From a virus: DNA of 59,921 bases. Position numbers and translations under genes: made by a program. Each line of letters starts with the position of its first letter. Position 1 is the first letter of the stretch. The notes beneath the pieces are model-generated. The model saw only the letters and a program-made list of their open reading frames with translations. It had not been told where the DNA came from and did not search any database. Shown here one piece after another: positions 710 through 31,591 of the stretch. The stretch is taken from the IMG/VR virus record IMGVR_UViG_3300028800_002273, positions 1 to 59,921 of that record; one strand, written 5' to 3'.

Positions 710-738
710 AGGTTTACCGGTTTCAAACCGGTAAACCT
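710..738 (-). terminator. Strong hairpin at the end of the exported-protein operon
   Basis: A perfect palindrome (aggtttaccggttt at 710-723, one base, then its complement at 725-738) touches the stop codon of the GH9 gene. As RNA it forms about 12 bp with a 5-nt loop. It closes the coupled operon that starts at 6442. No T-run follows on the minus strand, so it could act in RNA 3'-end stabilisation rather than intrinsic termination. Confidence 0.55.
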
Positions 739-3908: not shown

Positions 3909-3914
3909 AAACTG

Positions 3915-4259: not shown

Positions 4260-4654
4260 TTTAGGCGATTGGTTCGGCTATCCATGTAAGCGTGGTACTC
4301 TGCTGGTCTTTCGAGCAACCATAGGCGATCTTCATCGGCGATGAATCGGTCAAATGAGGCGTTGAAAAGAAGTTGGTTGGTTTCCATGTTTTCGGTAGCC
4401 AAGTAGCCCCAGCACTGAACGTACTCGAAGTCGGCCAAATCACGCTGCATCTGCCACCACGCCAATTCATGCTCCGCGCGATTCATCCTCGCCTGATATT
4501 TGGAAACATCCCGGGCGTGAACCATCTTGGCCTGTGCCTCAGTTTCGTAGTGACGGGCGCAGCCGGTACAGCAAATGAAGACGATGGCGGAAATCAAGAA
4601 GCACAACAGCAGCAGCCCGGCACTGATGAATGGCCATGGTAAACGGTTTTTCAT
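4256..4654 (-). CDS. Small lipoprotein with coiled-coil, spanin-like architecture
   Basis: A 132-residue protein with a long hydrophobic N-terminus followed by a lipobox-like CCTGC, then a charged helical region (about residues 38-75, rich in Ala, Glu, Arg and Gln) that could form a coiled coil. Anchored lipoproteins with periplasmic helices include phage outer spanins, but size and sequence do not allow that assignment. It overlaps both neighbours by ATGA, so it is co-translated with the secreted nuclease upstream and the winged-helix protein downstream. Confidence 0.6.
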   Translation of the reverse strand: MKNRLPWPFISAGLLLLCFLISAIVFICCTGCARHYETEAQAKMVHARDVSKYQARMNRAEHELAWWQMQRDLADFEYVQCWGYLATENMETNQLLFNASFDRFIADEDRLWLLERPAEYHAYMDSRTNRLK

Positions 4655-5178
4655 TCAACGTGCGGTGGATTTATCGTCAACACTTTTGGCCAGCCGAGAT
4701 GCGTCACATAACAGTTCGTCCAGTTCTTCGAAATCTCACTCTGATAATGGGACAACTTTGCTTTGGCGGCATCGGAGCCGTGCGCGGCCAGTTCCTTGCG
4801 GATGTCCGCCGCCAAAAAATTCTCAAGCCGATCTTTGGTATGCGCGTTCCACACCGGCGAATTGTAGGGTTGCGGCCAAAGGTTGCTGACGCTCTGGCTT
4901 CCGTTTAATTCGCAGGAAATCAGATGGTCGATCTCGTATTGGCCCGGGTTGGCGGGCACCTTGCCGAAATAACGGATGAACACCGCTTTCTTCTCGCTCT
5001 CCGGCACATTGCGGACCGTGGCCGCAAAACCATGAGCGCAAATCTGTTCGATGCTGAATCCATTAGTCGCCACCTCACCGGGAGTTTTGGTCGCATCAGG
5101 CAATACCGTGTCGTTACCAACCGCGTTATTGTTAAATACACTCCAGGCAAGAATAGCGACTAATGGCAAAAATTTCAT
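4651..5178 (-). CDS. Secreted HNH-family nuclease
   Basis: A 175-residue protein with an N-terminal signal peptide (MKFLPLVAILAWSV, mature from about residue 22). The core YEIDHLISCELNG (Asp84, His85), SNLWPQPYNSP and WNAHTKDRLEN matches the HNH/beta-beta-alpha-metal family found in secreted endonucleases. The longer frame up to 5358 is rejected because the ATGA overlap with the phosphatase gene and the signal peptide place the start at 5178. Predicted to cut DNA in the periplasm or outside the cell; possible roles are host DNA scavenging, exclusion of competing DNA or nutrient release. Confidence 0.75.
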   Translation of the reverse strand: MKFLPLVAILAWSVFNNNAVGNDTVLPDATKTPGEVATNGFSIEQICAHGFAATVRNVPESEKKAVFIRYFGKVPANPGQYEIDHLISCELNGSQSVSNLWPQPYNSPVWNAHTKDRLENFLAADIRKELAAHGSDAAKAKLSHYQSEISKNWTNCYVTHLGWPKVLTINPPHVE

Positions 5179-5678
5179 GGCACTTTCTCCCGATAATACC
5201 AATCGAGTCCTAATTCCGCCGGATGAAAGCCGAGGGCCAGCATTTCCTTGCGTGCCGCATCTTTCGTCCAGCCCTGTACCTGGTGACGATACATGGCCAC
5301 GATGAGACCGGTGCGGTCCTCGCCGTGCGAGCAGTGGACAAACACCTTCTCCCCACACTCAGCCGCTTCCCATACCGCGATTTGAGTGCGGTATGGCGGC
5401 CCAAATATCTGTTGCAGAAACGTGATAGGATATTTGTCCACCGTCATACCGCATTGCCTGGCGTAATCATCCGAGCCCTCCGCGTCCGTGTTCAGCTTGA
5501 TGACGATTTTAAACCCCTGGCTTTGCAGGTATTCCCAGCCTTCCTTGTTCGGCTCGCCGCCGCGGGCCAAATTCGTGGCCACCAGCGAATAGTTTGGTAT
5601 GCCATGCGTGCGCAGCGGTGTGGCGCACCCGCACAAGGCGAGCAGCGCAACACCGACGATCATTTCGCGGATTTTCAC
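5175..5678 (-). CDS. Lipoprotein tyrosine/dual-specificity phosphatase
   Basis: A 167-residue protein with a signal peptide and lipobox (LCGC, Cys18). HCSHGEDRTGL contains the CX5R signature of protein tyrosine phosphatases (Cys116 nucleophile, Arg122 phosphate binder), followed by a helix as in dual-specificity enzymes. An Asp in the loop before it (around Asp65-Asp71) could be the general acid. Being exported, it cannot act on cytoplasmic phosphotyrosine; inositol phosphates, surface phosphoproteins or phospho-glycans are more likely substrates. It is coupled by ATGA to the nuclease gene downstream. Confidence 0.8.
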   Translation of the reverse strand: MKIREMIVGVALLALCGCATPLRTHGIPNYSLVATNLARGGEPNKEGWEYLQSQGFKIVIKLNTDAEGSDDYARQCGMTVDKYPITFLQQIFGPPYRTQIAVWEAAECGEKVFVHCSHGEDRTGLIVAMYRHQVQGWTKDAARKEMLALGFHPAELGLDWYYREKVP

Positions 5679-5698
5679 GAGTCAGGGTGCAGATTGCG

Positions 5699-6442
5699 CT
5701 AAAACGCGTAATCGAGGCCACCGGCGATGGCCAATCCCTTGTCCGAGGATGCGCCGGGCTCAAAGGCGTAGATCAATTTTACGAATTCGCCGATGTGATT
5801 GCTTTGGCGATGTTCCACACCGACTTCTACGCCGGCTAATATCTGGCTGGACCATTCGTCGTAGCCAAAAATCAAACCACCTTCCGCGGCTACGTCGCCA
5901 ATCACTTTGCGATAGACGGCTTTGCCGTAAAAACCAGCAGTGCCGATGGAGGTGCCGTTATTACCCTGCAACACACCTGCGCCCACGCCGAGCCATTGCC
6001 AGCCGAACAAGCCATACTTTGTCACGGAAATGAAGGCTACGGTCTGTCCGCTGTTCTGTAGGTATGCCGCACCCAGCTCTGCCACGATCTCGTTGGTGCC
6101 GTAATAACCGCTATTGGCCGGGTTATTGGCGTTGATCCATGCGCTCGCTACTTCGAAAGCCTGCTGTGGCGTGGTGGGCACCACAATGGCGTTGGTTCCC
6201 TGCACGCCAAATGTGGAAACCACATAGCTTCCGTCAGCGTTGGTGCTGATCAAAAAGCTTTGGCCTTTGTAGGTGATAACTTGGCCCACGAGGTTTGGGA
6301 TGAGGGCGTTGATGTTGATACCGGCGATCGTGGGCGCGGCCGGTGGCTGGGTGATGGGCTGCGCCTGGCTGTTCACAACAAAGGAACAAAGGAACAAACC
6401 GGCAGTGATGAGAGATGCGAGTAGTAGTCTGGTGGTTTTCAT
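5699..6442 (-). CDS. Exported barrel-like outer-membrane protein candidate
   Basis: A 247-residue protein with an N-terminal signal peptide (MKTTRLLLASLITAGLFLCS). Residues 35-125 are an ordinary soluble domain (ATYKGQSFLIST-like region). Residues about 130-247 have alternating hydrophobic/Gly-rich strands (GKAVYRKVIGDVAAEGGLIF) and end in an aromatic (GGLDYAF), as outer-membrane barrels do. It opens the exported-protein operon after the hairpin at 6488-6511. A phage-coded outer-membrane protein could change receptor exposure, but that is inference. Confidence 0.6.
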   Translation of the reverse strand: MKTTRLLLASLITAGLFLCSFVVNSQAQPITQPPAAPTIAGININALIPNLVGQVITYKGQSFLISTNADGSYVVSTFGVQGTNAIVVPTTPQQAFEVASAWINANNPANSGYYGTNEIVAELGAAYLQNSGQTVAFISVTKYGLFGWQWLGVGAGVLQGNNGTSIGTAGFYGKAVYRKVIGDVAAEGGLIFGYDEWSSQILAGVEVGVEHRQSNHIGEFVKLIYAFEPGASSDKGLAIAGGLDYAF

Positions 6443-7555: not shown

Positions 7556-7861
7556 TCAGTGTTTGCTACCACCGCCAGTGATCCAATCAATCAACAATTT
7601 TCCAATCAGAGCTATTACGCCGCCAACGACACCGAACGCTGTATTCCAACCACGTTTCTCGCCAGATTCTCGGGCCTGCTTCTCTTCGATCCGTCGCACG
7701 CGGGCGCGGAGACTCTGATATGGTTCGGTGGGGTTATATACTTCATCCATCAACATTTCGATGGTATGAAGGGCACCCTTCTTACCGTCAAGATTTCCGA
7801 CGAGTGAAGACTTTATGAGTGCCACGTCGTCCAATAGTTGTTTTTCTCGCTCAGCGTCCAT
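7556..7861 (-). CDS. Coiled-coil protein with C-terminal membrane anchor (XhlA-like layout)
   Basis: A 101-residue protein with a long charged N-terminal helix (residues 1-65), then a hydrophobic C-terminal helix (AFGVVGGVIALIGKLLIDWI) and a short polar tail. This is the architecture of haemolysin XhlA/holin-associated proteins. It overlaps the response-regulator gene by 11 nt. It may join the lysis complex or anchor a phage factor at the membrane; sequence alone does not decide. Confidence 0.6.
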   Translation of the reverse strand: MDAEREKQLLDDVALIKSSLVGNLDGKKGALHTIEMLMDEVYNPTEPYQSLRARVRRIEEKQARESGEKRGWNTAFGVVGGVIALIGKLLIDWITGGGSKH

Positions 7862-8291
7862 TTATCCCTCCGAATATCTTGCGCAAATCATCTTCCTTGA
7901 CTGGCTTGGTTATGACCTGGATGGCGCCCAGCTTTACCGCCTCGGCGATGAGCGGCGTATTGGTGCTGTAACCAGTGACGATGACTACAACGTTTTTAAT
8001 ATTGATGCTCCGCAGGAAATCAAGCGGATCGAACCCGGGTATTACCAGATCGAGAAAGACGGCATCGAAAGGATTCGCCTTGAACATATTCAACCCTTCG
8101 ACCGGTGACGGACAGGCCGAAGTATCGCAGCGGATGACATTGAGTATGGCCTTGATGAGCAGTTCAACGTCTAGCGGAGCATCGTCGATTATTAACACGC
8201 GTGGCGTGCGGATAAGACGTGCAATGCTCTCGCGCAGATCGGAGAGTCCCTTGCTCGCCTCGGCGCATTTGATGCGGTCATCGGAGTTCAT
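7851..8291 (-). CDS. Stand-alone response-regulator receiver protein
   Basis: A 146-residue CheY-like receiver domain with no output domain. Key sites are present: acidic pair Asp36-Asp37 (VLIIDDAP), phospho-acceptor Asp81 (AVFLDLVIPG), Thr106 (VIVTGYS) and Lys129 (ITKPVKEDDL). An unusual 30-residue N-terminal helix precedes the domain. It is embedded among membrane/holin-like genes and coupled by ATGA to 8288-8548, so it belongs to the phage operon. It probably intercepts or feeds a host phosphorelay; no cognate kinase is in the window. Confidence 0.85.
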   Translation of the reverse strand: MNSDDRIKCAEASKGLSDLRESIARLIRTPRVLIIDDAPLDVELLIKAILNVIRCDTSACPSPVEGLNMFKANPFDAVFLDLVIPGFDPLDFLRSINIKNVVVIVTGYSTNTPLIAEAVKLGAIQVITKPVKEDDLRKIFGGINGR

Positions 8292-8548: not shown

Positions 8549-11500
8549 TCAATGGATGGTGCGCAGGATGGTTATGCCGGTAACCGAGGCGGAACCGGTT
8601 GATTTATCGTAGAATCCCACTACGTCATTCGGGCTGGTATCCGGAATGGAGAATGGAACAATGGCACCGGCCGCTAAAACGAAAGTATTGGCATTGGTAA
8701 TGACGATTCCGGCCGTAAAATTTGAGAATACCAAGAACGGTGCTCCGGTGACTGCGCTGTCATTCAGGATACAATTTGCCACATATGATGCGCGCCAATT
8801 TCCATTCGTGGTCGAAGCATTCAACGCGACGGCATTCAACAAGTTATTGACCGGAGCAGTGTTCGTTGGAATGTTGACCTGGCCACTGACTGTAATCCTT
8901 CCGGCGGAATCCACCGCCATCACATTGGTCGTGATAGTTATCGCTGCGGGTTGAAGACTCAATAGGCTATTCGTCATCAGATAGGCGTATGTGTTCAGCG
9001 CCGCGACCAGAGTGTATGCGTCTGAATTGTTCATGCCGCCACCTGCTCCGAACGCGAGACACTTCGCCGTAGTCGGCTGGAACACCCCGCCGCTGTTGAG
9101 GGCGAGAATACCGATGCTGCCATCCTGGGTTCCGGTCGAGAACGTGTTCGTCAAGAGCTGTGGGATTCGATTGTTCCAAAAAAACGACTTCTCGTTCCCG
9201 TCCACCCTTGTCATGAGGGCAACGCCTCGGAAGTCTGTAAGTCCAGCTATTCCCAAAGAGCCACCACCGTTATCATTAAGCCGTGTGGCAAGCAGAGAAG
9301 AAGATGAGTCGCACTGCATCCAAAGAGAACTATTTGCAGCGTCTGCTCCGCAGAGCGAGCTTATGCTGTTCGGAGCGGCGGCATTCCCGCTCAAGAAAAA
9401 CATCGACGCCCAGTTCGTACGCATCGGTCCCGTCGTGTTTGAGCGCGGGATGAATCCCGTGTCACCCCATCCCGCCACGCCGTCACCACTCACGCCGAAC
9501 TTGTCTTGATTTGCACCGCTCTTCCAAACGACAGGGAACGTGTTAGTATTGATGAGATTTATGCGATTCGCGTTCGTCCCGCCAAACATCGTGTAGAGGA
9601 TGTTCATGTTCGTCCAAACGGCTCCACGCTTCAATTCCTTCACCAAATAATCAACGATGCCCCGCTGGATGATGTTCGTCGTGTTCGCCGCCACGATGTA
9701 TTGCAAGGCGTTCGTATCCAAATAGAAGCCTTTGATTGGGTCAGATGAGAACGACATGACCTGCTTGTTCGTCTCGCCAAAGCCGGAGCTTTTTAAAACG
9801 ACGGTCAATACTGTGTTTGACGGGATGATGGTTGGAAGTGTGAGACCGTGCGCCGTCCAGCCTGACGGCCAATAAACCGCGCAATCCACATAGGCGGACG
9901 GCAGGATGAATGTTTGCTGCTGAAAATTCGTGCTCAGGCCGTTCTCGTTGGTGCTGTAGATGAACGCCTGATAGGTGAACAGCGGAATCTCGACCGTGTT
10001 CTCCCCGCTCATGTAGTCGAACGCGACGTTAGTGCAGGAATTCGGCTGTCGCGCTATACCGGTGAGAATCTTTCCGCGAAAGTTCCAGCCTTTCTGCGAC
10101 TCGTTAGTCGTGATAATCATACCGCCCGCCCAGTTGAGTTTCGCCATGTTGTCGCTTTTAGTTCGAATGTCTCCGACGATCGCGCCGGCCACGGTCGCGT
10201 CCACTCCGAAGTTGTAAAAACTCAAATACGATTCTGTGGTGCTTCTCGTTTCGGCCCTTATGCCTGAGTCCATCCCGTGAGTAATAGAGCCGTCATACCA
10301 ATCTACAGCCCACATGGCAGCGTAAGACCATGAAAGCAAGTTTCCGTTTGGAGACACTAATGGGTCATGGTCGAAATTGAACTCCATACTCACACGCCTG
10401 TCGCGCCCGCTGCCAACTTGGACGACGCGATAAGCGGCCCAGTCCGAACCGGGTACTCCGCTGAATCCCGGTCCGAGCATGATGCTCCCCGCCGTGATTT
10501 GAACCTCGAAATCTTTCGCCGTGGGGCCGTGTGAGAAGTTGCAAAAAATCTCCGCCTGACGCCCGTCATGATGGTTCCAATGTATGGGAGAATTGTTATC
10601 ATCGTTTATGTCCTCGCTGATGCCGCCCGAAGTGTTTGTGCTGAAAATGATCGCGCCCTGCGGGAAGCCGACGTTCGTGAAGTTCAGGGTGAACATGTTC
10701 CCTTTGGCCATCCCATTCGTGGCGCCTATAACCCAATTCGTCGTACTCGCCGGGACGCTACTTAAATAACTCCCCGCCGCCTGATACCGCGTGTTATCGA
10801 CATTCGTTGAAACAACTACATTCGTGAACGAAGTGAAATCTCCTTTGGCAGTCAGGCTGTTTGTCAAATCACCAAGCGTCATCGATCCGTTCGTGGTGGG
10901 ATTTCCAGTGGTGTCCAGCAAAAGAATCGGCTTCGTCGCCGCTGTATTGTTGATGAGGACTGCACTGGAAAAGTTAGCTGAACCTGCCGCCCCGGCAGTG
11001 GTCGCGAACGTGGCCATGCCATTGAGATTTCCATTGAATGTCACCGCCGTGATATTGGTGGTATTAGGGTCGTAGAACACAACGCCATTGGTCTGCGGGG
11101 AGTCGGTGATCGTCAAGGCGATGCCAGAAACAGTATTCGTGGTTGCCGTGACGGTTATGTGATTTGCGCCTGTCGCACTGGTAACCACATTGGTTGAAAA
11201 AGGGCTGAACCGGTTCGTGCCACTCGCCGGCAGAATGGAGATGAAATAAGGACTTAACAGCGTCACCAGGAAATTGGTTTCCGCCTCGTTGAAATATTGA
11301 TAGGCCCAATTCACCGCCACACCGAACTGCACATTCAGGTATGGCGTTTTGTACCGCACCAGGTTGAACGGGCCGGTCAGATTCGTGAGCGACATCGGCA
11401 AATATACATTCGTGCGGAACACGCTGTACCCGCCAAATTCAATGGAATATGAAAAACCCACCTGAAGATTCGTGCTCACACTGCCATTGGTCATGCCGGG

Positions 11501-11725
11501 CGTATTCGCGCGCGTGAAAATGATCGGGTCGGGGATATTGAAAGCGCTGCCGTTATCCGCGCCTGGCACACCAGGCGTGATGGTGATGCGCGTGATGCTA
11601 TTGCCTGCCGTGCCAACAAAATTTGTGAAGGGAATATAGACCGCGACTGTCTGCGCCTTTGAGGAAAAGACCAGACAGAGTGAAGCCAAAAACAGAACCT
11701 TGGCGAGAAATCGGAGTTTTCGCAT
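8549..11725 (-). CDS. Large tail-fibre-like protein with N-terminal signal peptide
   Basis: A 1058-residue protein starting MRKLRFLAKVLFLASLCLVF with a clear Sec signal peptide and AKA-like cleavage region near residue 25. Around residues 255-280 it carries the alternating motif seen in phage fibre shafts (GNLNGMATFATTAGAAGSA). The rest is beta-rich and Thr/Asn-rich; the C-terminal 300 residues look like a lectin-type sandwich. The frame extends 60 codons upstream, but those overlap the previous gene and lack signal-peptide logic. It lies in the tail-fibre block. Export of a tail fibre is unexpected; it could instead be a surface adhesin carried by the phage. Confidence 0.7.
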   Translation of the reverse strand: MRKLRFLAKVLFLASLCLVFSSKAQTVAVYIPFTNFVGTAGNSITRITITPGVPGADNGSAFNIPDPIIFTRANTPGMTNGSVSTNLQVGFSYSIEFGGYSVFRTNVYLPMSLTNLTGPFNLVRYKTPYLNVQFGVAVNWAYQYFNEAETNFLVTLLSPYFISILPASGTNRFSPFSTNVVTSATGANHITVTATTNTVSGIALTITDSPQTNGVVFYDPNTTNITAVTFNGNLNGMATFATTAGAAGSANFSSAVLINNTAATKPILLLDTTGNPTTNGSMTLGDLTNSLTAKGDFTSFTNVVVSTNVDNTRYQAAGSYLSSVPASTTNWVIGATNGMAKGNMFTLNFTNVGFPQGAIIFSTNTSGGISEDINDDNNSPIHWNHHDGRQAEIFCNFSHGPTAKDFEVQITAGSIMLGPGFSGVPGSDWAAYRVVQVGSGRDRRVSMEFNFDHDPLVSPNGNLLSWSYAAMWAVDWYDGSITHGMDSGIRAETRSTTESYLSFYNFGVDATVAGAIVGDIRTKSDNMAKLNWAGGMIITTNESQKGWNFRGKILTGIARQPNSCTNVAFDYMSGENTVEIPLFTYQAFIYSTNENGLSTNFQQQTFILPSAYVDCAVYWPSGWTAHGLTLPTIIPSNTVLTVVLKSSGFGETNKQVMSFSSDPIKGFYLDTNALQYIVAANTTNIIQRGIVDYLVKELKRGAVWTNMNILYTMFGGTNANRINLINTNTFPVVWKSGANQDKFGVSGDGVAGWGDTGFIPRSNTTGPMRTNWASMFFLSGNAAAPNSISSLCGADAANSSLWMQCDSSSSLLATRLNDNGGGSLGIAGLTDFRGVALMTRVDGNEKSFFWNNRIPQLLTNTFSTGTQDGSIGILALNSGGVFQPTTAKCLAFGAGGGMNNSDAYTLVAALNTYAYLMTNSLLSLQPAAITITTNVMAVDSAGRITVSGQVNIPTNTAPVNNLLNAVALNASTTNGNWRASYVANCILNDSAVTGAPFLVFSNFTAGIVITNANTFVLAAGAIVPFSIPDTSPNDVVGFYDKSTGSASVTGITILRTIH

Positions 11726-11745
11726 CGAAAACGCCGTTGAGTCAA

Positions 11746-12831
11746 TTATGGACGGTCTACATGTAGGGCGATGGTGTATTCCGAGCTTGATGAGAGTGCC
11801 GTCACACCAACTGTGATAATGAATGAATTGCTCGGGCTGTTTGGATTCGGTTGCATGGACAGGCGCGCGGATGTGAGTGCCGTGCTGTTCGTCAGTGGCG
11901 GCCACCAGGCCATTGAATAGGTTGGTACAACAAAATTGGTTGATACGGTCCTGCTCAATGTGAAGGTGAACAGATTCGTGGTCACCGGTTGCGCCGGCGA
12001 TGCGGTGGTGGTGAATGAAAAGAGCATGGCGCCATCAAACGCCTGCCCAATGAACTGCGCCGCAGATATTAGCGTAGGCGCATTGGTCACAAAGGTTGGT
12101 GTCCCGCCGAGCAGGTTCGCCGTCGTCATTACAATTGCCCCATTTGCAGTCAAGTTTAGGTTGGTATCCACGCTTATCAGGTTGGTTGGCACGACAACGC
12201 CGGTGAACAGGAACAACGTCGGCGTGGGGTTAGCCGCAAGTACCACGTCATTCCCGTTGTAAGTTCCAGACATCGCGAATGGCGTCCCGGCGGCTGGGAA
12301 TTGCGTCTGGTTAACGTAGTCGAATGGGAATCCGCTCGAATAATACATGAGCCGGTTCGGCGTCGAGTGTGTAGAACTCGTTAACAACATCGGGTTTCCT
12401 TGATATTTCGTCGGACTGTTCGTCTGATTGAAGATCACCACATAAAGCCCGTTCGTGTTGTTGAACTGCAAGAACCCACCGGTGAATCCTGCGTTCGTAT
12501 ATTTCCCGATCGTCGCCGCCGTTCCAGCATTCGAAACGACCAAATACGAACTCGATGAAGCCAGTGCGGTGGACACAATCAAGAGTCCGTTTGTGGTCGT
12601 TATCAAGTAACCCTTCAACGAGACGTTCGTTCGGAGGAGCGAGACTGTGTTGCTCATCACGCTGAAGTCCTTCGAAGAAAACTTTGGTATGATTGGCTGG
12701 CCATTCGCCGTTACCGTGTTCCTGTTCATAACTCCAATGACGGCCTGCGGGTTGTTCGTGACGATGATATATGACTGAGACTCAGCGGTCAGTGTGAGCA
12801 ATAGAAACGAGAAAATGAGGATTGTTTTCAC
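11746..12831 (-). CDS. Exported Thr/Asn-rich beta protein in the tail-fibre block
   Basis: A 361-residue protein with a signal peptide (MKTILIFSFLLLTLTAESQS). The mature part is predicted beta-sheet, with many Thr-Asn dipeptides and no Cys. Tight spacing (6 nt from the gene upstream, 20 nt to the fibre gene downstream) places it in the same transcription unit as the tail fibres. No catalytic motif is visible. It may be a fibre or collar component, or a secreted adhesin. Confidence 0.65.
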   Translation of the reverse strand: MKTILIFSFLLLTLTAESQSYIIVTNNPQAVIGVMNRNTVTANGQPIIPKFSSKDFSVMSNTVSLLRTNVSLKGYLITTTNGLLIVSTALASSSSYLVVSNAGTAATIGKYTNAGFTGGFLQFNNTNGLYVVIFNQTNSPTKYQGNPMLLTSSTHSTPNRLMYYSSGFPFDYVNQTQFPAAGTPFAMSGTYNGNDVVLAANPTPTLFLFTGVVVPTNLISVDTNLNLTANGAIVMTTANLLGGTPTFVTNAPTLISAAQFIGQAFDGAMLFSFTTTASPAQPVTTNLFTFTLSRTVSTNFVVPTYSMAWWPPLTNSTALTSARLSMQPNPNSPSNSFIITVGVTALSSSSEYTIALHVDRP

Positions 12832-12837
12832 GTGATA

Positions 12838-14799
12838 TTAAGGAAGCACGATGGGTTTCGGGTAAAATCCGTATCCTCCTTGCGCCGAGCATGTCGGTGC
12901 AGGTGTGACCAAACCGCTCCATCCATGGTCTGGCCATGTGGCGACTACATCCGTAATGAGCGCCCGCCCGGCCTGCGTGACAGACCAATAGGTGTATTTA
13001 ACCGTCCCGAAACCGTCTATACTGAACCCTGGTCCTGGCCCATATTGCTGCGCCTGAAACGTGGAGTTGTCTTGCATGCCCTTCGCGTCCGCCAACTTTC
13101 TACAGTCGCAGCCAACGATGAAATAAACGTCCGAAGAACTACACGATGGATCATTCGTCGTCACGATGCACGGCGGCGAATTAGTTGGTGAACCCGGCGG
13201 ACCGGTCGGCGGATCCCATGTGAGAAGTATCGCGCCCTCATTGTTGAAAATGTTCCCGCCGATCTTCCCGCCACTACCGCACACATACCAGAGGTTTGAG
13301 TTGATCGCCGTGGTGAACGTGACCTTCTGTCCGCCGCTTCCAATATACGCGGTGTTCGTGTCGGGTATCAGGAACAGCGTGCTCATGTTCGTGAGGTAGA
13401 ATTCCTCGAACGGTCCAGTGCCCGTGATGTTTATCTCAGGAGAGCCGGGCCCAGGCGGAATGAACTGCGCATTCGTCGCCCAATAGAACTTCACGTCCGA
13501 GTTGCCGATGTATTGCGACCACGCCATGACCGTCTCGACGTTGGTGGTATAGTTCGTCAGAACTGGCTGAACGAAATAGGTTCCGGACGGCGCCGGCGCG
13601 GCTCCGGTACCGAATGTCAACGTCCACGACGCGTTCGTAGGCTCAGAGGCGGTATAGGCAGTATAATCTGGAACACCGTTCGAGCCCATTGTCCACACCG
13701 AACCAGTGTGAAATATCCTCATGTTGTCGAAGGTGGCGTTCGTCCAAACGTCCAACCCGTCGAAATAATTCTCCTGAGAGTTCGTCGCAGTGGGTTGTCT
13801 ATAAAACTGCCTGTAGGTTCCATTAAGGTTCGGCGTCCCAGCACCCGAAATGGTTATGACGATGTTCGAGGCAATCCAATTCACATATGCATTCGTCGAG
13901 TTTACGATTCTGTTCGTGAACACCTGCCCGAAGGCGTCCCACTTGTGATAAAGGCCGTTGATCTTGAAATCGTTCGTCACGAACATCGTGTCCGCCGTGT
14001 AGACGTCACCGTTCGTGCAGAGGAGTTGAACCGTCGCCGTGATTCCACAGGCGTTCGAATATATAATCACGTCGTCACTGTTCGTGTAGAACGGGTAATA
14101 TGGCCCGCTATGGTCCGGGCAAGGCCGGCTCCCGGTTATGGTGAAAAGGCAAGCGTTCGTGTAGGTGTTCGCGGGCAGATCGCCGTCGAGCAAATACGGC
14201 CCAGCCGGGTCGTCGCAGGTGAACGAATTCGTGAGTCTTTTGAAATTGCAGGCGTTCGTGTAGACCTTCGTCCCGTTCGGCAGCGTTGAATTGAGCGAAT
14301 ATGGGCCGGCCCAGTTCGTGCAGAAATAAAGTCCAGTATCAATTATCATTTTCCCGTTGCAGTTGGACAAGACTCCTGCGCTCGGTTGCGGTCCGGACAG
14401 CCAGATGTAACCGCAGCCTGGCGGCGTGAGTCCATCGGTTATGTCCTGCGCGTTCGTGAACAATATTCCACCGATATATCTATACGCGTGATCATCGATG
14501 AGGTTTAAGCGGTTCGTGCTCGTCTGGTTCGATGAACCACCAGAATAAATTAGCACCTTGGTTGCATCACTCCCGCCACCGCCAATACTGCTCGGAAATT
14601 GATTCGTCAGAAACCGGTAAGCCGCGCCGCTCACCCACCAATTGCTGATGGTAATCCAATTGGTGGCATTATCCTGCCAATGAAAAAGATTTGGGTTGCC
14701 CGGCGGATCCACCCTGAAATTCGTCTGACCGGCCGAGCGAAACACGGAGACGCAAAGGAGCAAAGACGCAAGGTAGCCCGTAAATCGGCGGCGATTCAT
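12838..14799 (-). CDS. Exported Cys-containing tail-fibre-block protein with internal repeats
   Basis: A 653-residue protein. The N-terminus MNRRRFTGYLASLLLCVSVF has a signal peptide with an RRRF pair that slightly resembles a Tat motif. Residues about 165-265 hold three related units of the form AGPY ... YTNAC with extra Cys (CTNWAGPY, CDDPAGPY, CPDHSGPY), suggesting disulphide-stabilised repeats folded outside the cytoplasm. The C-terminal third is Gly/Pro/Cys-rich (CIVTTNDPSCSSSDVY). The hydrophobic signal core is encoded by a spacer-type repeat (see 14742-14773). Function unknown; placement argues for a tail-associated or phage-carried surface protein. Confidence 0.65.
   Translation of the reverse strand: MNRRRFTGYLASLLLCVSVFRSAGQTNFRVDPPGNPNLFHWQDNATNWITISNWWVSGAAYRFLTNQFPSSIGGGGSDATKVLIYSGGSSNQTSTNRLNLIDDHAYRYIGGILFTNAQDITDGLTPPGCGYIWLSGPQPSAGVLSNCNGKMIIDTGLYFCTNWAGPYSLNSTLPNGTKVYTNACNFKRLTNSFTCDDPAGPYLLDGDLPANTYTNACLFTITGSRPCPDHSGPYYPFYTNSDDVIIYSNACGITATVQLLCTNGDVYTADTMFVTNDFKINGLYHKWDAFGQVFTNRIVNSTNAYVNWIASNIVITISGAGTPNLNGTYRQFYRQPTATNSQENYFDGLDVWTNATFDNMRIFHTGSVWTMGSNGVPDYTAYTASEPTNASWTLTFGTGAAPAPSGTYFVQPVLTNYTTNVETVMAWSQYIGNSDVKFYWATNAQFIPPGPGSPEINITGTGPFEEFYLTNMSTLFLIPDTNTAYIGSGGQKVTFTTAINSNLWYVCGSGGKIGGNIFNNEGAILLTWDPPTGPPGSPTNSPPCIVTTNDPSCSSSDVYFIVGCDCRKLADAKGMQDNSTFQAQQYGPGPGFSIDGFGTVKYTYWSVTQAGRALITDVVATWPDHGWSGLVTPAPTCSAQGGYGFYPKPIVLP
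14742..14773 (-). repeat. GCAAAG-type spacer repeat inside a signal-peptide coding region
   Basis: The plus-strand text acggagacgcaaaggagcaa continued by agacgcaagg has the triplet-like GACGCAAAG pattern that I remember as a dispersed spacer repeat in Verrucomicrobia. On the minus strand it encodes the hydrophobic core of the signal peptide at 12838-14799. A related stretch (ctctgtgtgctctgtgcctc) sits in the 48-nt gap before that gene. Confidence 0.45.
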
Positions 14800-14847
14800 T
14801 CAGAAAACCGGGCAAGTCAAAAACTCTGTGTGCTCTGTGCCTCTATG

Positions 14848-17800
14848 CTAAAGCAGATTCAGGAGCGCCACAAAATCATTCACCGGCTGTGCGCTCAACG
14901 GAAACTGCGTGTAACTGGCCACGCCACCAAAGCCGCCCGGGTCGCCTTCGAAGTAATTCGGGAAGCGAAAGAAATTAACCATCGCCAAACCCGCATAATC
15001 CAGATCGTTGATATATTCACCGCTGTTATATTGGATCATCGCACCGGAATACTGCCGGTTATGGAAAATCGGCTGGAAACACGCCACCACCTCGCACCGC
15101 ACCGCGTCCGTTGCCTGGTATGCGATGGGCACACCGTGCAACACTGGCCACGCCACTGTGGCGCGCGCCTCGAGCGCGCCGTGCGGTATGGTCACCGTGG
15201 TCAACGCCGTGAAGACGCCCGGGTTGATCGTCTCAAAGCTCGTATGCACTGCGCCCACGTTAAATCCTATCGCCACCACCAGCTCCTGCAGGTCCGCATC
15301 CGCCGTGGGCGGCAGGTAGATGGATGGATTCCGCCCGGCCGCTTTCACAGTGAGTTTCGGCAAACGGCGCACGAGAATTTGCGTGATCATGAAGCCGCGC
15401 TGCGGAATCAGTTGCTCATACTGCACCGCCGGCGGGATGATGGGCGCCTCGGTGTTCTCAAAAATGTCATTCGAGAAACATTCGCCCGGTCCTTGCGTCT
15501 GGTTCGTCGGGTCCAGTTCCACACCGATGCTCGGCACCACCAGTGGGTATTGCTGAAACCGCCACAGATAATTTGCCGCGCTGATATTGCCGTAATTCTC
15601 AAAACGCGCACTGATCGTCGTGCTGTGGCTCGCGCCGGTGGCGTTGTACACCGTCAGATGCAATGTCGCGGTCACCAAGGCCGCCGCGCCGTATTGCGCC
15701 ACCAGGTCTGCCCACGTCAATGTGCCGCCTGCTTTTAATATCTGAAACGTGGAACCATCCAGCGGATTCGGCGTGCCGGTGTTGCTCACCAGAATCGTCA
15801 AGGTTGGCACATCCACGCTATACGAAAAATTCTTAACGCCTGTATTGAAAAAAAACGCCGTATTGTCCTGTGCTGTATTCGCCAAAGTCACTGTGCGTTG
15901 TGACAGGCTCCGATATGCATCAATCCCGCTGAACCATGGATACGCGTCCGTATCGCGCATCACCGGCCATTGCGCTGCCTGCGCCATCAAACCCGGTTCC
16001 ACCGGCCGTATCGTTACCGGCGTGTATTGCTGCCACAAGATCGCCAGCACCGGTATATCCGCGCCCGAATCGTTCACGATTACGAAAAACAACTTTTTTC
16101 CGCCCGCTGTCTTCGCCACCGTGCTGCCATCGTAAAACGCCTGCACATCCGCAAAATTCACCTGCCCGTTCGTCGTCTTGAAACCGTAGGTGGTGGGATC
16201 TGCGATATCCACCGTTTGCTTCAAAGAAACATAGATCGAGATGGCCGCGCTGACGGAAACAATCGGATCATCGCCCGCCGTCGCACCGGGCCCGTAATAT
16301 TTCGCCAGCGTCACATCATCCGGATAATTCACCGTTGCGATATATTTCGCATTCTTGGCCAAAGGCGGGTTCACATTGCCGTAAGTCACCTCCTGACGCA
16401 CCAGCGTGGGGCTCGGCTGGCGCATCGCCGTGCGCGGGTTCACCACCGTTCCGCTGTTCGCGCCGCCTTGCAGAAACGTTTCGTCCAACGCAGTCGCCAC
16501 AATCCGCCGCGGCACAGTGTTGAACTCCAGTTGCGCCAGCTTCTGCACATGCGGCGCGATGTCCGTATCCAGGAACGTATTGATCGCCGGTATCGGCAAC
16601 GTATCCGCCTGCCACACACCGCGCATCGGCGTCAGGTTAATCGCCACAAATGGCCATTTATCGTCCGCGGGCCAATCCACAGTCGTGTTCGTGAATGAAA
16701 ACCCGCGCAACACATTGTTATCCGCCAAAGCCGTCAACGTCAGCTTTTGCCCGTCATTCGCCGGATGGATGATCTGCGTCCCCGCGCGCGCAGTCGTGGC
16801 CGGAAAGAAAAATTCACACCGCGCCGTCGAAGTGGGCGGCACCGCATAATCTCCCGTCGCCGTGAAATTATAGGTGCCGTGCGCACCAGCCGCCACGTCC
16901 ATCAAAATATACTTCACATCCACACCGCCCAGGCGCAAGGGTATCTCGATCCGCGCAAAAAACTGGCAATCCACCGGCGCTTTGAAACCAAACGTCTCGC
17001 TCACCGTCACATTCGGCGTGCTCCCGCTGCCAACGCCCACCTGCTTCAACGGCGCCATCACACCCCACAACAGGTCCGCTGCATCAGAAGTGGCGTTTAG
17101 ATATGGTATGTCCGCCGTGTAATCGATGTTCGCATTGGAAAAATCCTCATCACCGCCCGAGAACAGGAAACGGATATTTTTGAACAGCAGAAAATCCTTG
17201 CTCGGCACACCCGATGCCGTCCAATACGCCGAACCGCCCGCCGGCACCTGGTTAACGCTATTCGCCGTCGCTGTCCACAGCGAGCCCGCATACGCCACCT
17301 TATCCCCGATCAGGTAAAGCGTCCCCGGATCCCATTGCGCCGGCACACCGCCGTTTTTCACAGGAAACGGTGTCAGGAACAATTTGCCGTTATGCGCCAC
17401 TGCCGGACATGGATTGATCCCCACACACTGGTCCGTCGAGAGTTTATAGGCATCCGGGAAATACTCCGTGCCCGGCGCATAATGCAGCACGTTCGTCCAC
17501 ATGTCGTCGCGCATGCGCTGCAATTCACGCAACCTGCTCAATGGACTCCGCGTATTCACCGCACCCACCAAAGAGCCCAGCTCTTCCGTCTGCCACCCGC
17601 CCACATCCGCCCAGGCATCATTCGCCAGCGCGTAGAAATCCACGTCATCCGTGAACGACGTTCCCGCCACGATGCGAAAAATCTTGTTCACCGCCAGAAA
17701 TTGGTCACCCAGAATCGATTCACTCGATAACCCGAACTCCACCGCCTGCACGTGATATTTCGCCGCGCCCGCCACCGCCGTCCACGACCAGGTGATCTTG

Positions 17801-18075
17801 TATGGTCGCCCCGAATTATCCGGCGTCACCGTCCCGCCCATGAATTGTGTTCCCCAGCCCGAGCCATCATGCGACGAAACCCGCACCGATACCGGCACAC
17901 CATCCGCCAAACGATTCCCCGTTCCGTAAGCAATCGTCCCCGTCACCTTGCGCGGCGCCACCACATCGGAGAAAGACGCAAACGCATAGTTCAGCGCCGG
18001 CGCCATTTTGGTGTTACCCAACGTCGCCAACCCCTGCACATCCGCATCATCAATGGTAGCCCCGACCGCAATCAC
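14848..18075 (-). CDS. Large baseplate/tail-tip protein with carbohydrate-binding module
   Basis: A 1075-residue protein without a signal peptide. Residues about 247-287 match a CBM5/12-type chitin-binding fold (QWDPGTLYLIGDKVAY, then GSLWTATAN and a terminal YWTA). The rest is beta-rich and repetitive, typical of tail-tip or receptor-binding proteins. Start: an in-frame stop directly precedes the GTG at 18075; the next candidate is Met24. No Shine-Dalgarno sequence is evident for either. It follows the CATG-rich region and heads the fibre block. It is the most likely true virion adhesin of the four large proteins. Confidence 0.7.
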   Translation of the reverse strand: MIAVGATIDDADVQGLATLGNTKMAPALNYAFASFSDVVAPRKVTGTIAYGTGNRLADGVPVSVRVSSHDGSGWGTQFMGGTVTPDNSGRPYKITWSWTAVAGAAKYHVQAVEFGLSSESILGDQFLAVNKIFRIVAGTSFTDDVDFYALANDAWADVGGWQTEELGSLVGAVNTRSPLSRLRELQRMRDDMWTNVLHYAPGTEYFPDAYKLSTDQCVGINPCPAVAHNGKLFLTPFPVKNGGVPAQWDPGTLYLIGDKVAYAGSLWTATANSVNQVPAGGSAYWTASGVPSKDFLLFKNIRFLFSGGDEDFSNANIDYTADIPYLNATSDAADLLWGVMAPLKQVGVGSGSTPNVTVSETFGFKAPVDCQFFARIEIPLRLGGVDVKYILMDVAAGAHGTYNFTATGDYAVPPTSTARCEFFFPATTARAGTQIIHPANDGQKLTLTALADNNVLRGFSFTNTTVDWPADDKWPFVAINLTPMRGVWQADTLPIPAINTFLDTDIAPHVQKLAQLEFNTVPRRIVATALDETFLQGGANSGTVVNPRTAMRQPSPTLVRQEVTYGNVNPPLAKNAKYIATVNYPDDVTLAKYYGPGATAGDDPIVSVSAAISIYVSLKQTVDIADPTTYGFKTTNGQVNFADVQAFYDGSTVAKTAGGKKLFFVIVNDSGADIPVLAILWQQYTPVTIRPVEPGLMAQAAQWPVMRDTDAYPWFSGIDAYRSLSQRTVTLANTAQDNTAFFFNTGVKNFSYSVDVPTLTILVSNTGTPNPLDGSTFQILKAGGTLTWADLVAQYGAAALVTATLHLTVYNATGASHSTTISARFENYGNISAANYLWRFQQYPLVVPSIGVELDPTNQTQGPGECFSNDIFENTEAPIIPPAVQYEQLIPQRGFMITQILVRRLPKLTVKAAGRNPSIYLPPTADADLQELVVAIGFNVGAVHTSFETINPGVFTALTTVTIPHGALEARATVAWPVLHGVPIAYQATDAVRCEVVACFQPIFHNRQYSGAMIQYNSGEYINDLDYAGLAMVNFFRFPNYFEGDPGGFGGVASYTQFPLSAQPVNDFVALLNLL

Positions 18076-22332: not shown

Positions 22333-22776
22333 TCAAGTAGGGATGCTGGTCATCAGCGTGTTTTGCGTGGCGTCCGCATAAGCCTTCAGCGAGAGTTTGA
22401 ATTTGGCGACATCATCATTCTTCATCGCGATGTTCGAACCGCTCTGCACCGTCCAAGTCGTGTTCGCCACCGCCAGATCACTGCCAGCAATCACGATGTT
22501 CGACAACTTCGGCAGAAACCCGCCATTCGTCACCGAATTGATCTTCGCCGCGTTCACCTTCGTGTCACCGAGCAATTCAAATTCAATGTCGCCTTTGTAC
22601 TTCTCATTCTGCGCGCGCTCCGAGCAATCATTCCCCGTCCGGTCCAGTTTGATATCGTCCTGGAATTCCTGCGTGATATTGAAAGTCTGCGGCTCCGCAT
22701 ATCCAATCACGTCAAACGTGGCCGAACCAAAACCAGAATTGATCTGCGCCTTGCCGCGAAAAGTGATGAGTGGCAT
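22333..22776 (-). CDS. Major tail tube protein candidate
   Basis: A 147-residue beta-rich protein (MPLITFRGKAQINSGFGSAT) with size and strand pattern like siphoviral tube proteins. Its position before two small genes and the tape measure fits. It lacks the signal peptide of the two genes upstream, as expected for a cytoplasmically assembled tube. Specific family not recognised. Confidence 0.6.
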   Translation of the reverse strand: MPLITFRGKAQINSGFGSATFDVIGYAEPQTFNITQEFQDDIKLDRTGNDCSERAQNEKYKGDIEFELLGDTKVNAAKINSVTNGGFLPKLSNIVIAGSDLAVANTTWTVQSGSNIAMKNDDVAKFKLSLKAYADATQNTLMTSIPT

Positions 22777-22782
22777 AAATTT

Positions 22783-23193
22783 TTAAGGAGAGGTATAATT
22801 TCCGCCGATGGATACATCGCCCGTGTTCCATGAGTTTGTTTCCGCGCCAACCACAAAATAAACCGGCACAGTGACCGATTGCGGCTGTATCGTTTCCGTG
22901 GTCGTGTTTGTGCCCGCCGGACGGTACACCGGCCCGATCTTCACAAAATTTGTTTTATCCAACGAAAACTTGAGATACCCATTGAAAGCGTTCGTTATGC
23001 TCAAATCGCTGTAAGTGATCGTTATTTTTCCCACCGACACCGGTGTAGAATTCGTTTGTAAAACCGCGCTATTCGTTCCACCCGGCGTCTTCATCAGGCT
23101 CAAAGAAGTGAAAAGATTTCCATCCGCGCGCGCCGTGAACGAAAGGCAAATCGCAAATATAAAAACCAGCAAGGCAAGAAATAGCTTCTTCAT
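22783..23193 (-). CDS. Small exported beta protein in the tail operon (paralogue of the next upstream gene)
   Basis: A 136-residue protein with a textbook signal peptide (MKKLFLALLVFIFAICLSFT, cleaved near ARA-D). The mature 110 residues look like one beta-sandwich. It shares length, a GTN-(S/P)-(A/S)-V stretch and overall strand layout with the protein at 23258-23656, so the two are probably tandem paralogues separated by a REP-like palindrome. It lies 6 nt from the tail tube gene. Why a protein in this place would be exported is unclear. Confidence 0.65.
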   Translation of the reverse strand: MKKLFLALLVFIFAICLSFTARADGNLFTSLSLMKTPGGTNSAVLQTNSTPVSVGKITITYSDLSITNAFNGYLKFSLDKTNFVKIGPVYRPAGTNTTTETIQPQSVTVPVYFVVGAETNSWNTGDVSIGGNYTSP

Positions 23194-23225: not shown

Positions 23226-23258
23226 GCTTGGAGTCCCGCCTTCAGGCGGCGCGCCACC
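23226..23258. repeat. REP-like palindrome
   Basis: The text cccgccttcaggcggcgc holds ccgcc (23236-23240) and ggcgg (23245-23249) around ttca, flanked by ggcttggagt and cgccacc. The flank-plus-stem phrase resembles dispersed palindromes I remember from Verrucomicrobia genomes. It fills the gap between two paralogous exported-protein genes. Confidence 0.5.
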
Positions 23259-23656
23259 TAATTGTGAAGAATCGAAGTCGAAGAAGGCGTTGCCGGATTC
23301 GTGGATACCACATCCACTTCCAAAAACACCGGCAGACCGCTCAGGTTTAACGGCACATTGTATTGCGCCGCGTTCGTCGCCGGCGGCACCCAATTCGTCA
23401 GCACCAGCCAGGAATTTGTGTTCCCTATCGCCAGCCGGGCCCGATACGTCAGCGTATTCGTCGTCGGCAAACCGCCATTTTGGAATTGATACACCAATTG
23501 TCCCAGATTCAAGCTGCCTGGCGCCTGATAGATCACGCTCGGATTCGTCCCCACTGGCAGCGAAAAATTCAACATCAGGTTCGTGGAAAACACCTGCGCA
23601 CGCGCACCTATGCACACCAGCAACGCCAACAGGAAAATAAAAAGTTTCGTCTTCAC
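23258..23656 (-). CDS. Small exported beta protein in the tail operon
   Basis: A 132-residue protein starting at GTG (VKTKLFIFLLALLVCIGARA is the signal peptide). The start is fixed by a GTGA overlap with the gene upstream; the longer frame to 23731 lies inside that gene. The mature part is beta-rich with several Thr-Asn pairs and aligns loosely with its neighbour at 22783-23193. Possibly a surface or envelope protein made together with the tail, or a virion protein folded in the periplasm. Confidence 0.65.
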   Translation of the reverse strand: MKTKLFIFLLALLVCIGARAQVFSTNLMLNFSLPVGTNPSVIYQAPGSLNLGQLVYQFQNGGLPTTNTLTYRARLAIGNTNSWLVLTNWVPPATNAAQYNVPLNLSGLPVFLEVDVVSTNPATPSSTSILHN

Positions 23657-28804: not shown

Positions 28805-29428
28805 CTAAGGGCCACCGCCGCGTGAGCCGATGAAGACGGCACCCACGGTAATGTTGGTGGCGGTACTGGCGGCGGCGCAGGTCCAAATGATGTGCGTATA
28901 ACGTTTCACACTATCCACGTTGTAGGCGATATTGTAATAGCCTTTGCTGATGGTTAGCGCGCCGGTATTGGTGAACTGCCCATAATTGATATAGGGGGTC
29001 GCCCAACCCGAGGTGTTCGCGGTAGGAGTCACAATGGATCCGGGAAATAGGAAACTTTGAGTAATGATGGTGTTGGTGCCGCCACCGAGCTGAGAATTGG
29101 TGAAACTGAGCGAGGTAGTGGTGGCCAGCGCGTAGTTCGGGAACGTGCTCCAATTGGTGCTGTCATCGGATTGTTCCAGGAGGGCGGTCTGGGCTACGCC
29201 GGCGGCGTTGGTGAGCGCAAAAATCTGGATGCGCGCTATGCCGCTAAACATGGCGGTATCGATTGCACCGTTGGTCACAGTGGCGGTGCCTACGGTGGAG
29301 AGCGTGGCGGGCGCGGCGAGAATAACTTCGCGGGGCACGCGGTAGAAATCGGCGATTTGACCGCTGACCGTGCCCGCCAGCATGACCACGGTGGCCACGA
29401 TTCCGACCGTCAATTTGGAGAATTTCAT
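28805..29428 (-). CDS. Decoration-position head protein with N-terminal signal peptide
   Basis: A 207-residue protein directly downstream of the capsid gene. The mature part is a beta-sandwich with TALLEQSDDSTNWSTFPNYA and YTHIIWTCAAASTATNITVG, a pattern common in capsid decoration or spike proteins. Yet the N-terminus (MKFSKLTVGIVATVVMLAGT, then VSG-Q) is a standard signal peptide. Either the protein is a membrane- or surface-delivered phage protein, or decoration happens after export. The start has no good alternative that removes the signal peptide. Confidence 0.7.
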   Translation of the reverse strand: MKFSKLTVGIVATVVMLAGTVSGQIADFYRVPREVILAAPATLSTVGTATVTNGAIDTAMFSGIARIQIFALTNAAGVAQTALLEQSDDSTNWSTFPNYALATTTSLSFTNSQLGGGTNTIITQSFLFPGSIVTPTANTSGWATPYINYGQFTNTGALTISKGYYNIAYNVDSVKRYTHIIWTCAAASTATNITVGAVFIGSRGGGP

Positions 29429-29464: not shown

Positions 29465-31591
29465 TTATTGGTTGGCTGAATCGGCGCTGCGGGTGAACGC
29501 CTGGGCGTGCCGCACGGCTGAATCCATGTACGTGTTGGTGGTGATAGCCACTTCATCGCGGTCGGCCCGCGTGAAATTGTCGATCACGACATTGATGCCG
29601 CCCCATTGGGCGATGAGTAGATTGCTGAACACACCGGCCAAGAGGATGTTTCCGGGGATCTGCTGGCTGGAGATGGCCTGGGCGCCGATCAATGAGCCAT
29701 TATCTTCATCGCCGATCCACAAGGCGCCGTTCACACCGCTGACGAGGGTGGCACCGACCAGGCCGGCGGGCAAGACGGACAAACGGCCTTGGCCAACGCT
29801 GGTAGTGGCGAAACCGATGGGTCCGTTCACATTGAAGGAACGGATGGCGGTGCGGAAAGCAACGATCTGCGCATAAGTGGGGGTGCCACCAAAAATAACT
29901 TGGTTGATGCCGGGTTGATTGAGCACGCCCAGCGGTTGATCGGCGGCGCCGGAACCGTTCAATGCCATCAAATCCATGTAGAGCGCGATCACCTGCATGT
30001 GGTCGTTCAACACGAACGCCTCAAAATCGAGCGAGGATTGCAGGACGGCCAGGCGCGAATAATATTGGCGGCTGCCGATGCGGTGGGGCGACATGCGGAT
30101 CTGGCCGAGCACCTGGTCGTAGGGAGCAAGTTGCGCGCCTTCCGGCAGGCTTTGCGCCACGGTGGCGGCTTCCTGGCGGGGGAAAACCACATCGCCGATT
30201 AAGCCGCCCAAAAAGGTGGCACCCAAACGGGCGCAAACAAGCTGGTTGCGGAGCAATTCGATCATGGGCCGGAAATCCGGCACAATCGTGGCTCCGGCCG
30301 TTGAAAAATCACTGGCCAGGGAATCACGCTGCTGGCGATCGCGGCGGCTTTGGTTGCGCACGGGCGCCGGTGTGCCGGAAGGGAGAAAAAATCCGCCCTG
30401 CTCCAAAATACGTGTGCCGCCCGGAAAATCGGGAAGACGATGGACGATCTCGTTGTGCGCATCCAATTCCGCAGATTCAGCCGGAAGCAAAGCGGTGGAT
30501 TTTACGCCTTTGGAATTTTCCAAAGCGGAGCGCACGGCGCCCATGAAGGAACAACGCTTGGCCAGTTCCGCCGGCAGGTTCGCCGCCTCTTCCTGGTTCT
30601 TGGGCGGGCGCGAATCGCGCACCAACTCCCCACATTTGGTCTTGAAATCTGTGCGCACTTCGGAATCTGAATGGTCCGCCGGCGCATTGTAGGCTTCCTG
30701 TTCAAAAGCGCGGATGCGTTCACCCACCACCACCACCTCGCCGCGTTTGCCCGCCCATTTGAGCCCGTGATCTTTCACGAAGGCATCGGCCAATGCCTTG
30801 ATCTCTTTGTTGCGCGCGTTGACCTTTTCAGTGCGGACGCGAAATTCACCCTCCACCGTTGTCCGGGTGGCTTGCGCCACTTCCGAGCGGAGCTTCGGTT
30901 CGTCAATAACCAGCGCGGGCGCGCCACCACCACCGGCGGCAGGTGTGGGATCCAGTAAAATTCTCATGCGTTTTTTTTGTTCAATGGTTAAACTGTCGGC
31001 AATCTGCTCAACATTCGTAAATTTCGATAAGTCAACCGGCGGGATTTGTTCAGCGGGTTTTTCGCGGCCCACACCCACACTGGTATCAGCGGGCACGGGG
31101 ACGATGGCGATGTGCGAAGGCATCCAGCGATAGCGCGTGGTGACCATGTTGTCCGCCGCTTTTTTGGAGGAAACCACGCCGGTACGATCGTAACCAACGG
31201 AAACCAGTTCGCGGATGCCGTCCACGACGTCCTGAAAAATTTCCGTGGCCAAGGCGCTGTTGCCGAAGCGGACCACGGCGCGACCGATCTTGTCGCCGTC
31301 CACGCGGGCGGATTCGATCACGCCGATCTGGCTCTTGGGATCATATTCATCATGACCTAGCAGGAGAGGATGGCTGTCATTCAGGCGGGAAAAATCGTAA
31401 TCACCCTTGTCATGGCTGAGGACTTCGTTTTCACCCCAACGCTCCACGGGTGCCTCAGAGGAAAAGGCCACCTCCAAAGTGCGTTTGGCCGCATCGATCT
31501 TATCCCGGCTGATCTTCAATGAGCGGGCCAAACCAGTTTGCGGCGAGGCCGCGCGTTTTTCGTCTGCCATACGAAAAACCACCTCAGTCAA
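29465..31591 (-). CDS. Prohead protease-major capsid protein fusion (HK97 fold)
   Basis: A 708-residue protein. Residues about 35-175 match the S78-type prohead protease: PLLLGHDEYDP holds the catalytic His80, GIRELVSVGYDR the Ser131, and the SHIAIVPVPAD block closes the domain. Residues 180-420 are a linker/scaffold-like charged region (Gly-rich, then coiled coil), and residues 425-708 are the HK97-like shell (TAGATIVPDFRPMIELLRNQ ... LVNGALWIGDEDNG type). Protease, scaffold and shell in one chain imply autocleavage. Location after the portal and before the decoration-position gene fits. Function certain as a capsid gene; cleavage sites are not visible. Confidence 0.85.
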   Translation of the reverse strand: MTEVVFRMADEKRAASPQTGLARSLKISRDKIDAAKRTLEVAFSSEAPVERWGENEVLSHDKGDYDFSRLNDSHPLLLGHDEYDPKSQIGVIESARVDGDKIGRAVVRFGNSALATEIFQDVVDGIRELVSVGYDRTGVVSSKKAADNMVTTRYRWMPSHIAIVPVPADTSVGVGREKPAEQIPPVDLSKFTNVEQIADSLTIEQKKRMRILLDPTPAAGGGGAPALVIDEPKLRSEVAQATRTTVEGEFRVRTEKVNARNKEIKALADAFVKDHGLKWAGKRGEVVVVGERIRAFEQEAYNAPADHSDSEVRTDFKTKCGELVRDSRPPKNQEEAANLPAELAKRCSFMGAVRSALENSKGVKSTALLPAESAELDAHNEIVHRLPDFPGGTRILEQGGFFLPSGTPAPVRNQSRRDRQQRDSLASDFSTAGATIVPDFRPMIELLRNQLVCARLGATFLGGLIGDVVFPRQEAATVAQSLPEGAQLAPYDQVLGQIRMSPHRIGSRQYYSRLAVLQSSLDFEAFVLNDHMQVIALYMDLMALNGSGAADQPLGVLNQPGINQVIFGGTPTYAQIVAFRTAIRSFNVNGPIGFATTSVGQGRLSVLPAGLVGATLVSGVNGALWIGDEDNGSLIGAQAISSQQIPGNILLAGVFSNLLIAQWGGINVVIDNFTRADRDEVAITTNTYMDSAVRHAQAFTRSADSANQ

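Follow-up and report, generated by a model that had tools for sequence, protein, structure and literature searches.

Signal peptides on accessory proteins of the structural gene cassette in a clade of uncultured tailed phages and their possible export

Introduction

Can fibre-like proteins of a tailed phage leave the cytoplasm and, if so, are they destined for the virion or for the surface of the host? Virion assembly in tailed phages is assumed to take place in the cytoplasm and, to our knowledge, tail fibres are made there without a signal peptide (SP). The question is raised by the virus record IMGVR_UViG_3300028800_002273, in which three consecutive proteins of the fibre block carry SPs; the first-pass annotation had left open whether these are host-surface adhesins or fibres which are exported and then attached. 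The window (the whole stretch of DNA analysed; 59,921 nt or 59.9 kb, linear) belongs to a member of an uncultured tailed-phage clade with a lambda-type portal and a protease-capsid fusion. Coat proteins which are synthesised with a Sec signal peptide are known from the virions of filamentous phages (pIII and pVIII of M13); however, those virions are extruded as they assemble in the membrane, whereas the present phage has a dsDNA genome, a tail, and genes for capsid, portal and terminase. In the open-licence literature we found no report of a tailed phage whose fibre or decoration proteins are exported by Sec.

Results

Signal peptides were called with a home-made rule, which requires a positive n-region, an uncharged hydrophobic core and either an AxA-type site or a lipobox. 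The rule was positive at 11 of the 44 real starts in the window, all 11 of them downstream of the capsid gene, and at four of 1104 internal pseudo-starts of the window genes (0.36%). No obvious Shine-Dalgarno sequence was found ahead of the starts of the SP genes. The structural genes are located on the minus strand in the following order: terminase, head–tail protein, portal, protease-capsid fusion, SP gene 28805, small gene 28297, 24621-25475, 24007-24597, 23653-23988, SP genes 23258 and 22783, putative tail tube, assembly genes, tape measure (assigned by position and size), two genes, a large tail protein and the SP trio. The features of the main genes are presented in Table 1. In this cassette, six accessory genes encode an SP versus none of the core genes. 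Based on sequence criteria, the features of a Sec and signal peptidase I substrate are present in the fibre trio and in three further cassette proteins.

Table 1. Genes of the window considered in this work and the signal peptides predicted for their products
Position	Strand	Product	Length (aa)	SP	Remarks
29465..31591	-	Protease-major capsid fusion		No	Identified by tblastn to annotated capsid proteins; 0/20 homologues with SP
28805..29428	-	Post-capsid protein	207	Yes	Directly after capsid gene; SP followed by predicted beta-sandwich
23258..23656	-	Pre-tube protein	132	Yes	GTG start overlaps previous stop
22783..23193	-	Pre-tube protein	136	Yes	Directly before putative tail-tube gene
22333..22776	-	Putative tail-tube protein		No	Assigned by position and length only
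14848..18075	-	Large tail protein	1075	No	Immediately upstream of SP trio
12838..14799	-	Fibre-block protein 1	653	MNRRRFTGYLASLLLCVSVFRSAG, then Q	Cys repeats
11746..12831	-	Fibre-block protein 2	361	MKTILIFSFLLLTLTAES, then Q	GTG start
8549..11725	-	Fibre-block protein 3	1058	MRKLRFLAKVLFLASLCLVFSSKA, then Q	Length from ATG 11725
5699..6442	-	Predicted exported OM-barrel-like protein		Yes	Ends in Phe

Concerning the trio, the Sec signal peptides which had been described as convincing on first inspection were recovered in all three proteins, against the rate of 0.36% at internal pseudo-starts. The first start codon of the 8549 reading frame, GTG 11905, was rejected in favour of ATG 11725 because it would give an overlap of 160 bases with the neighbouring gene. 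Two other features reported by the first-pass annotation fared less well. The Cys repeats of the 12838 protein are real (the pattern C...[TS]NAC has three matches, and six in the orthologue of contig G004), but Cys richness, taken there to suit an oxidising compartment, is not a mark of export, since a tail protein of contig G001 without SP (L011:2561-5899) has 26 Cys. The typical fibre-shaft repeats did not hold up in the window: the self-match score of the 8549 protein is 48 versus up to 55 in shuffled sequences (not significant) and that of the 11746 protein is 59 versus up to 56 (marginal); only the G001 orthologue of 8549 reaches significance (119 versus up to 58).

The same three proteins are found in G004, in the same order and after the same tail protein, which likewise lacks an SP (L020:13949-16660, the orthologue of the 14848 protein; the latter has a weak CBM5/12 match, below the cut-off). 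The 12838 orthologue in G004 (L020:11611-13944, E 2e-10) has an SP and shares the Cys repeats, and the 11746 orthologue (L020:10392-11603, E 6e-9, N-terminal 119 residues only) also has an SP. N-terminal homologues of the 8549 protein with an SP are present in G001 (L011:6148-9705, E 2e-6), G004 (L020:8701-10365, E 4e-4) and G009 (L049:9754-12318, E 2e-4). The alignment of 8549 and 11746 to their relatives is confined to the N-terminal part, so the N-terminus is kept and the C-terminus varies; receptor-binding fibres usually have a conserved N-terminus and a changing C-terminus. The fibre block is located downstream of the tape measure and tail-tip genes in the window, G001, G004 and G006-G009. 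No meaningful fibre-family match was found for the trio in Pfam/PHROG, and we call the proteins fibre-like based on gene position and architecture. The best match of the model of a fibre N-terminal domain in a PDB fold search was the collar chain of phage DEV (E 0.018, not significant); the PDB searches of this model and of that of the post-capsid protein gave beta-sandwich matches only, none of them significant. A beta-helix-like stretch, read visually in the G001 spike, had no match among phage records or PDB sequences.

Related contigs were found in IMG/VR with terminase, capsid-alignment and portal-alignment queries, while single-protein IMG/VR scans with 12838, 14848 and 28805 found none. 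Counted as contigs, some of which are near-duplicates, and not as independent events, SP proteins are present in the pre-tube slot of 8/8 contigs covering it (10 proteins, with otherwise poorly conserved bodies) and in the fibre block of 7/7 contigs extending to it. The fibre-block SP proteins number three in the window and four in G004; G006 has about four (some of them called by eye), G008 and G009 have two each, G001 has one, and G007, where the contig ends, has at least one. A homologue of the 22783 protein with an SP is found in G006 (E 3e-16); the neighbouring putative tail-tube protein has no family match in Pfam/PHROGs, and these databases likewise gave no match to a known decoration family. 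No SP was found among the 152 proteins of twelve core families (capsid, portal, terminase, head–tail, tube, tape measure and six others), and the conserved SPs of the cassette are limited to the accessory slots. AxA-type cleavage sites are kept in nearly all of the sequences and most are followed by Gln.

The post-capsid slot is the most uniform. A homologue of the 28805 protein (29-44% identity to that of the window) is encoded by the next gene in every related contig which extends past the capsid gene, and 15/15 homologues from 14 contigs have an SP (13 called by the rule and two by eye: L028:14429 with a weaker core, and that of L044 with an insert in the n-region). Nine of the 15 match the phrog_5707 profile (best E 4.8e-6; window protein E 3.2e-5), whereas a direct profile-profile comparison with only two of the phrog_5707 proteins is weak. 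The AF2 model (pLDDT 68, moderate confidence) contains an N-terminal helix and a beta-sandwich, and its best match among viral models is V5YTA7 of PPpW-3 (E 4.5e-6, TM 0.76 by target length), which is probably ORF7 of that phage, judging from the same length (115 aa). PPpW-3 ORF7 falls in the tblastn family of Persinger gp7. In PPpW-3, Persinger, MQ-4, ECO1230-10, S-CBS1 and S-CBS3, a phrog_5707-type gene takes the first or second place behind the capsid gene, and in FoX1 its distance downstream is slightly greater; all seven relatives inspected in cultured phages lack an SP. The proteins of this type (Persinger gp7, MQ-4 gp7, PPpW-3 ORF7, and gp05 of S-CBS1 and S-CBS3) resemble the post-capsid protein in profile, fold and location beside or close behind the capsid gene, but differ in the lack of an SP and in length (115-126 aa versus about 180 aa for the mature post-capsid protein). 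Because the inspected relatives, encoded near the capsid gene, lack an SP, the simplest reading is that the post-capsid SP looks like a clade-specific gain by a protein of a virion gene module. Homologues without the signal, named by the first-pass annotation as evidence against its proposal, were found in this family only, where they point to such a gain and not to an artefact.

The first-pass annotation had overlooked the three further cassette SP genes (28805, 23258 and 22783), as well as SP and lipoprotein genes at 738-6442. This distal block contains two predicted exported lipoproteins (a GH9 protein and a phosphatase of the tyrosine/dual-specificity type), an SP protein with a sub-threshold nuclease match and the OM-barrel-like protein of Table 1. 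Similar Phe-ending SP proteins are found in four relatives, downstream of the fibre block.

Concerning the host, scans of a genome collection with the capsid and portal gave no match. The N/T-rich proteins, together with an insert of LTPALSPGRG type in the SP of L044, resemble what we take to be traits of Verrucomicrobiota. Most SPs fit the Q-rule (Gln directly after the signal peptidase I site), and such sites are a hint of Bacteroidota; the rule was described for Bacteroidetes, to which this host may or may not belong, in a paper which does not mention Verrucomicrobia (PMC5837995).

SPs of this kind are rarely found in cultured phages. None was reported among the 52 genes of the Verrucomicrobia phage P8625 (PMC4642752), rumen phages have zero to two per genome (PMC5723332), and the structural regions of MQ-4, CRP-811 and Persinger (44 genes) contain none. 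Several genes of the Porphyromonas gingivalis Nixviridae encode Sec signal peptides with Gln after the cleavage site; they are reported as genes of unknown function, the SP of the capsid is ascribed to the prohead protease, and the passage on these genes describes no set positions next to those for capsid, tube and fibre (PMC10367356).

Discussion

We favour the reading that the outer accessory virion proteins of this clade are Sec-exported, the core forming in the cytoplasm and the outer proteins in the periplasm until both meet at lysis; we put its probability at about 0.48, slightly below even. Capsid, portal, tail tube, tape measure and tail tip would be put together in the cytoplasm, while the fibre or spike proteins and the small proteins of the post-capsid and pre-tube slots would at the same time be exported, cleaved by signal peptidase I behind the A-x-A-type site (in most cases with Gln as the new N-terminus) and folded in the periplasm. 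Lysis would then open the inner membrane and bring the particles into contact with the periplasmic pool, from which they would be decorated. Export, cleavage, virion binding and the timing at lysis are the parts that we infer.

A destination in the virion is favoured for several reasons. The SPs are found on the six accessory genes of the cassette versus no core gene, and they are conserved in the post-capsid (15/15), pre-tube (8/8 contigs) and fibre-block (7/7) slots versus 0/152 in the core. By sequence and fold, the post-capsid protein has SP-less relatives adjoining the capsid gene of other phages; an SP protein directly precedes the putative tail-tube gene; and the fibre-block proteins keep the N-terminus and vary the C-terminus. 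The trio resembles tail fibres and spikes in its place after the tail-tip gene, its large size, this pattern of variation and the repeats in relatives, but differs in having SPs and no family match. Counting against the model, particles and exported proteins would not meet before lysis, which would require rapid attachment and strong binding. The wider proposal, that a tailed dsDNA phage lineage completes its virions outside the cytoplasm by adding head decoration, tube decoration and receptor-binding fibres, all made as Sec precursors and matured in the periplasm, to bare particles at lysis, is tentative and in our view somewhat less likely than not; the open-licence papers gave no account of such a route in tailed phages. 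As regards the initial choice between adhesins and attached fibres, the conserved export signals stand, and the balance tilts towards putative virion-destined proteins.

The main rival, in our view less probable, is that the exported proteins act on the host, where they could coat or alter the envelope, hide receptors, prevent superinfection or keep progeny from adhering to debris; late expression would then explain their position in the cassette. The same phages do encode conserved Phe-ending barrel-like exported proteins and lipoproteins, which are envelope-like, so export need not mean the virion. A precedent is Spackle (gp61.3) of T4, an exported protein with a cleaved SP which inhibits gp5 in the periplasm (PMC7650644), and the SP genes of the Porphyromonas phages are interpreted as outer-membrane modifiers (PMC10367356). 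A Sec SP is common to the present proteins and to exported exclusion proteins of the Spackle/Llp type, but the two sets are unlike in size, number and position: the inhibitor Spackle has 97 aa, whereas this clade has up to six SP proteins, some longer than 1000 aa, inside the structural cassette. Moreover, the position beside the capsid and putative tube genes is fixed in all relatives, the SP-less relatives of the post-capsid protein are located beside the capsid gene of other phages, and several large proteins of fibre architecture would be an unusual toolkit for exclusion.

An improbable alternative is that the hydrophobic N-termini are membrane anchors, uncleaved or slowly cleaved, which tether late assembly or maturation to the inner membrane, or that the proteins have a dual localisation and the cytoplasmic fraction is incorporated. 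Assembly at the membrane would bring the proteins near the particles without waiting for lysis, and some of the hydrophobic cores are long; a plain anchor, however, needs no AxA-type site, and these sites, most of them with Gln after, are conserved in nearly all sequences. Finally, chance or mis-called starts (artefacts of ORF prediction or parts of unrelated genes) might be suspected in a metagenomic contig with SP calls by a home-made rule and no obvious Shine-Dalgarno sequences, but such an origin is practically excluded by the comparative data, given the low chance rate per start and the recurrence of both SPs and gene order in contigs from many samples.

The presence of export signals on presumed outer proteins and their absence from the core suggest either a two-compartment finishing of the virus or a dressing of the infected cell. 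If the proteins are virion-destined, the receptor-binding and other outer parts would mature in another compartment and join the particle late. If they stay on the host, they would represent a novel strategy, based on several proteins, by which a phage reshapes the envelope of its infected host. Either outcome, virion or host surface, is directly testable by experiment.

Predicted exported and other proteins encoded near the fibre block

Two phage-encoded enzymes of the window bear a lipoprotein signal: a glycoside hydrolase family 9 (cellulase-type) protein (738-3908; Pfam GH9, E 1e-43) and a tyrosine/dual-specificity-type phosphatase (5175-5678). A gene at 7851-8291, after the fibre block and ahead of the distal genes for exported proteins, encodes what by eye looks like a stand-alone receiver protein of the response-regulator type.

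Five phages (the window and four uncultured relatives) encode, downstream of their fibre block, a Sec signal peptide (SP) protein that has a C-terminal Phe and resembles a small beta-barrel of the outer membrane; it could act in superinfection exclusion or envelope change.

Locations of the Phe-ending barrel-like SP protein
Phage	Coordinates	Strand
Window	5699-6442	
L011	10473-11099	
L046	8300-8950	
L048	2141-2773	minus
L020	7108-7590	minus

Post-capsid proteins and translation starts

The post-capsid protein of the related phage L044 has a signal peptide (12306-12400) that contains an insert reading LTPALSPGRGG, a likely interspersed repeat known from certain environmental bacteria, and keeps its hydrophobic core and cleavage site. 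Another relative, L028, has two SP-bearing copies of this protein (14429-15052 and 15596-16564), of which the latter contains a large internal insertion.

No Shine-Dalgarno-like sequence is found upstream of the window SP-gene starts at 14799, 12831, 11725, 29428, 23656 and 23193, and A-rich leaders precede several post-capsid genes of the relatives. Such features may aid host assignment.
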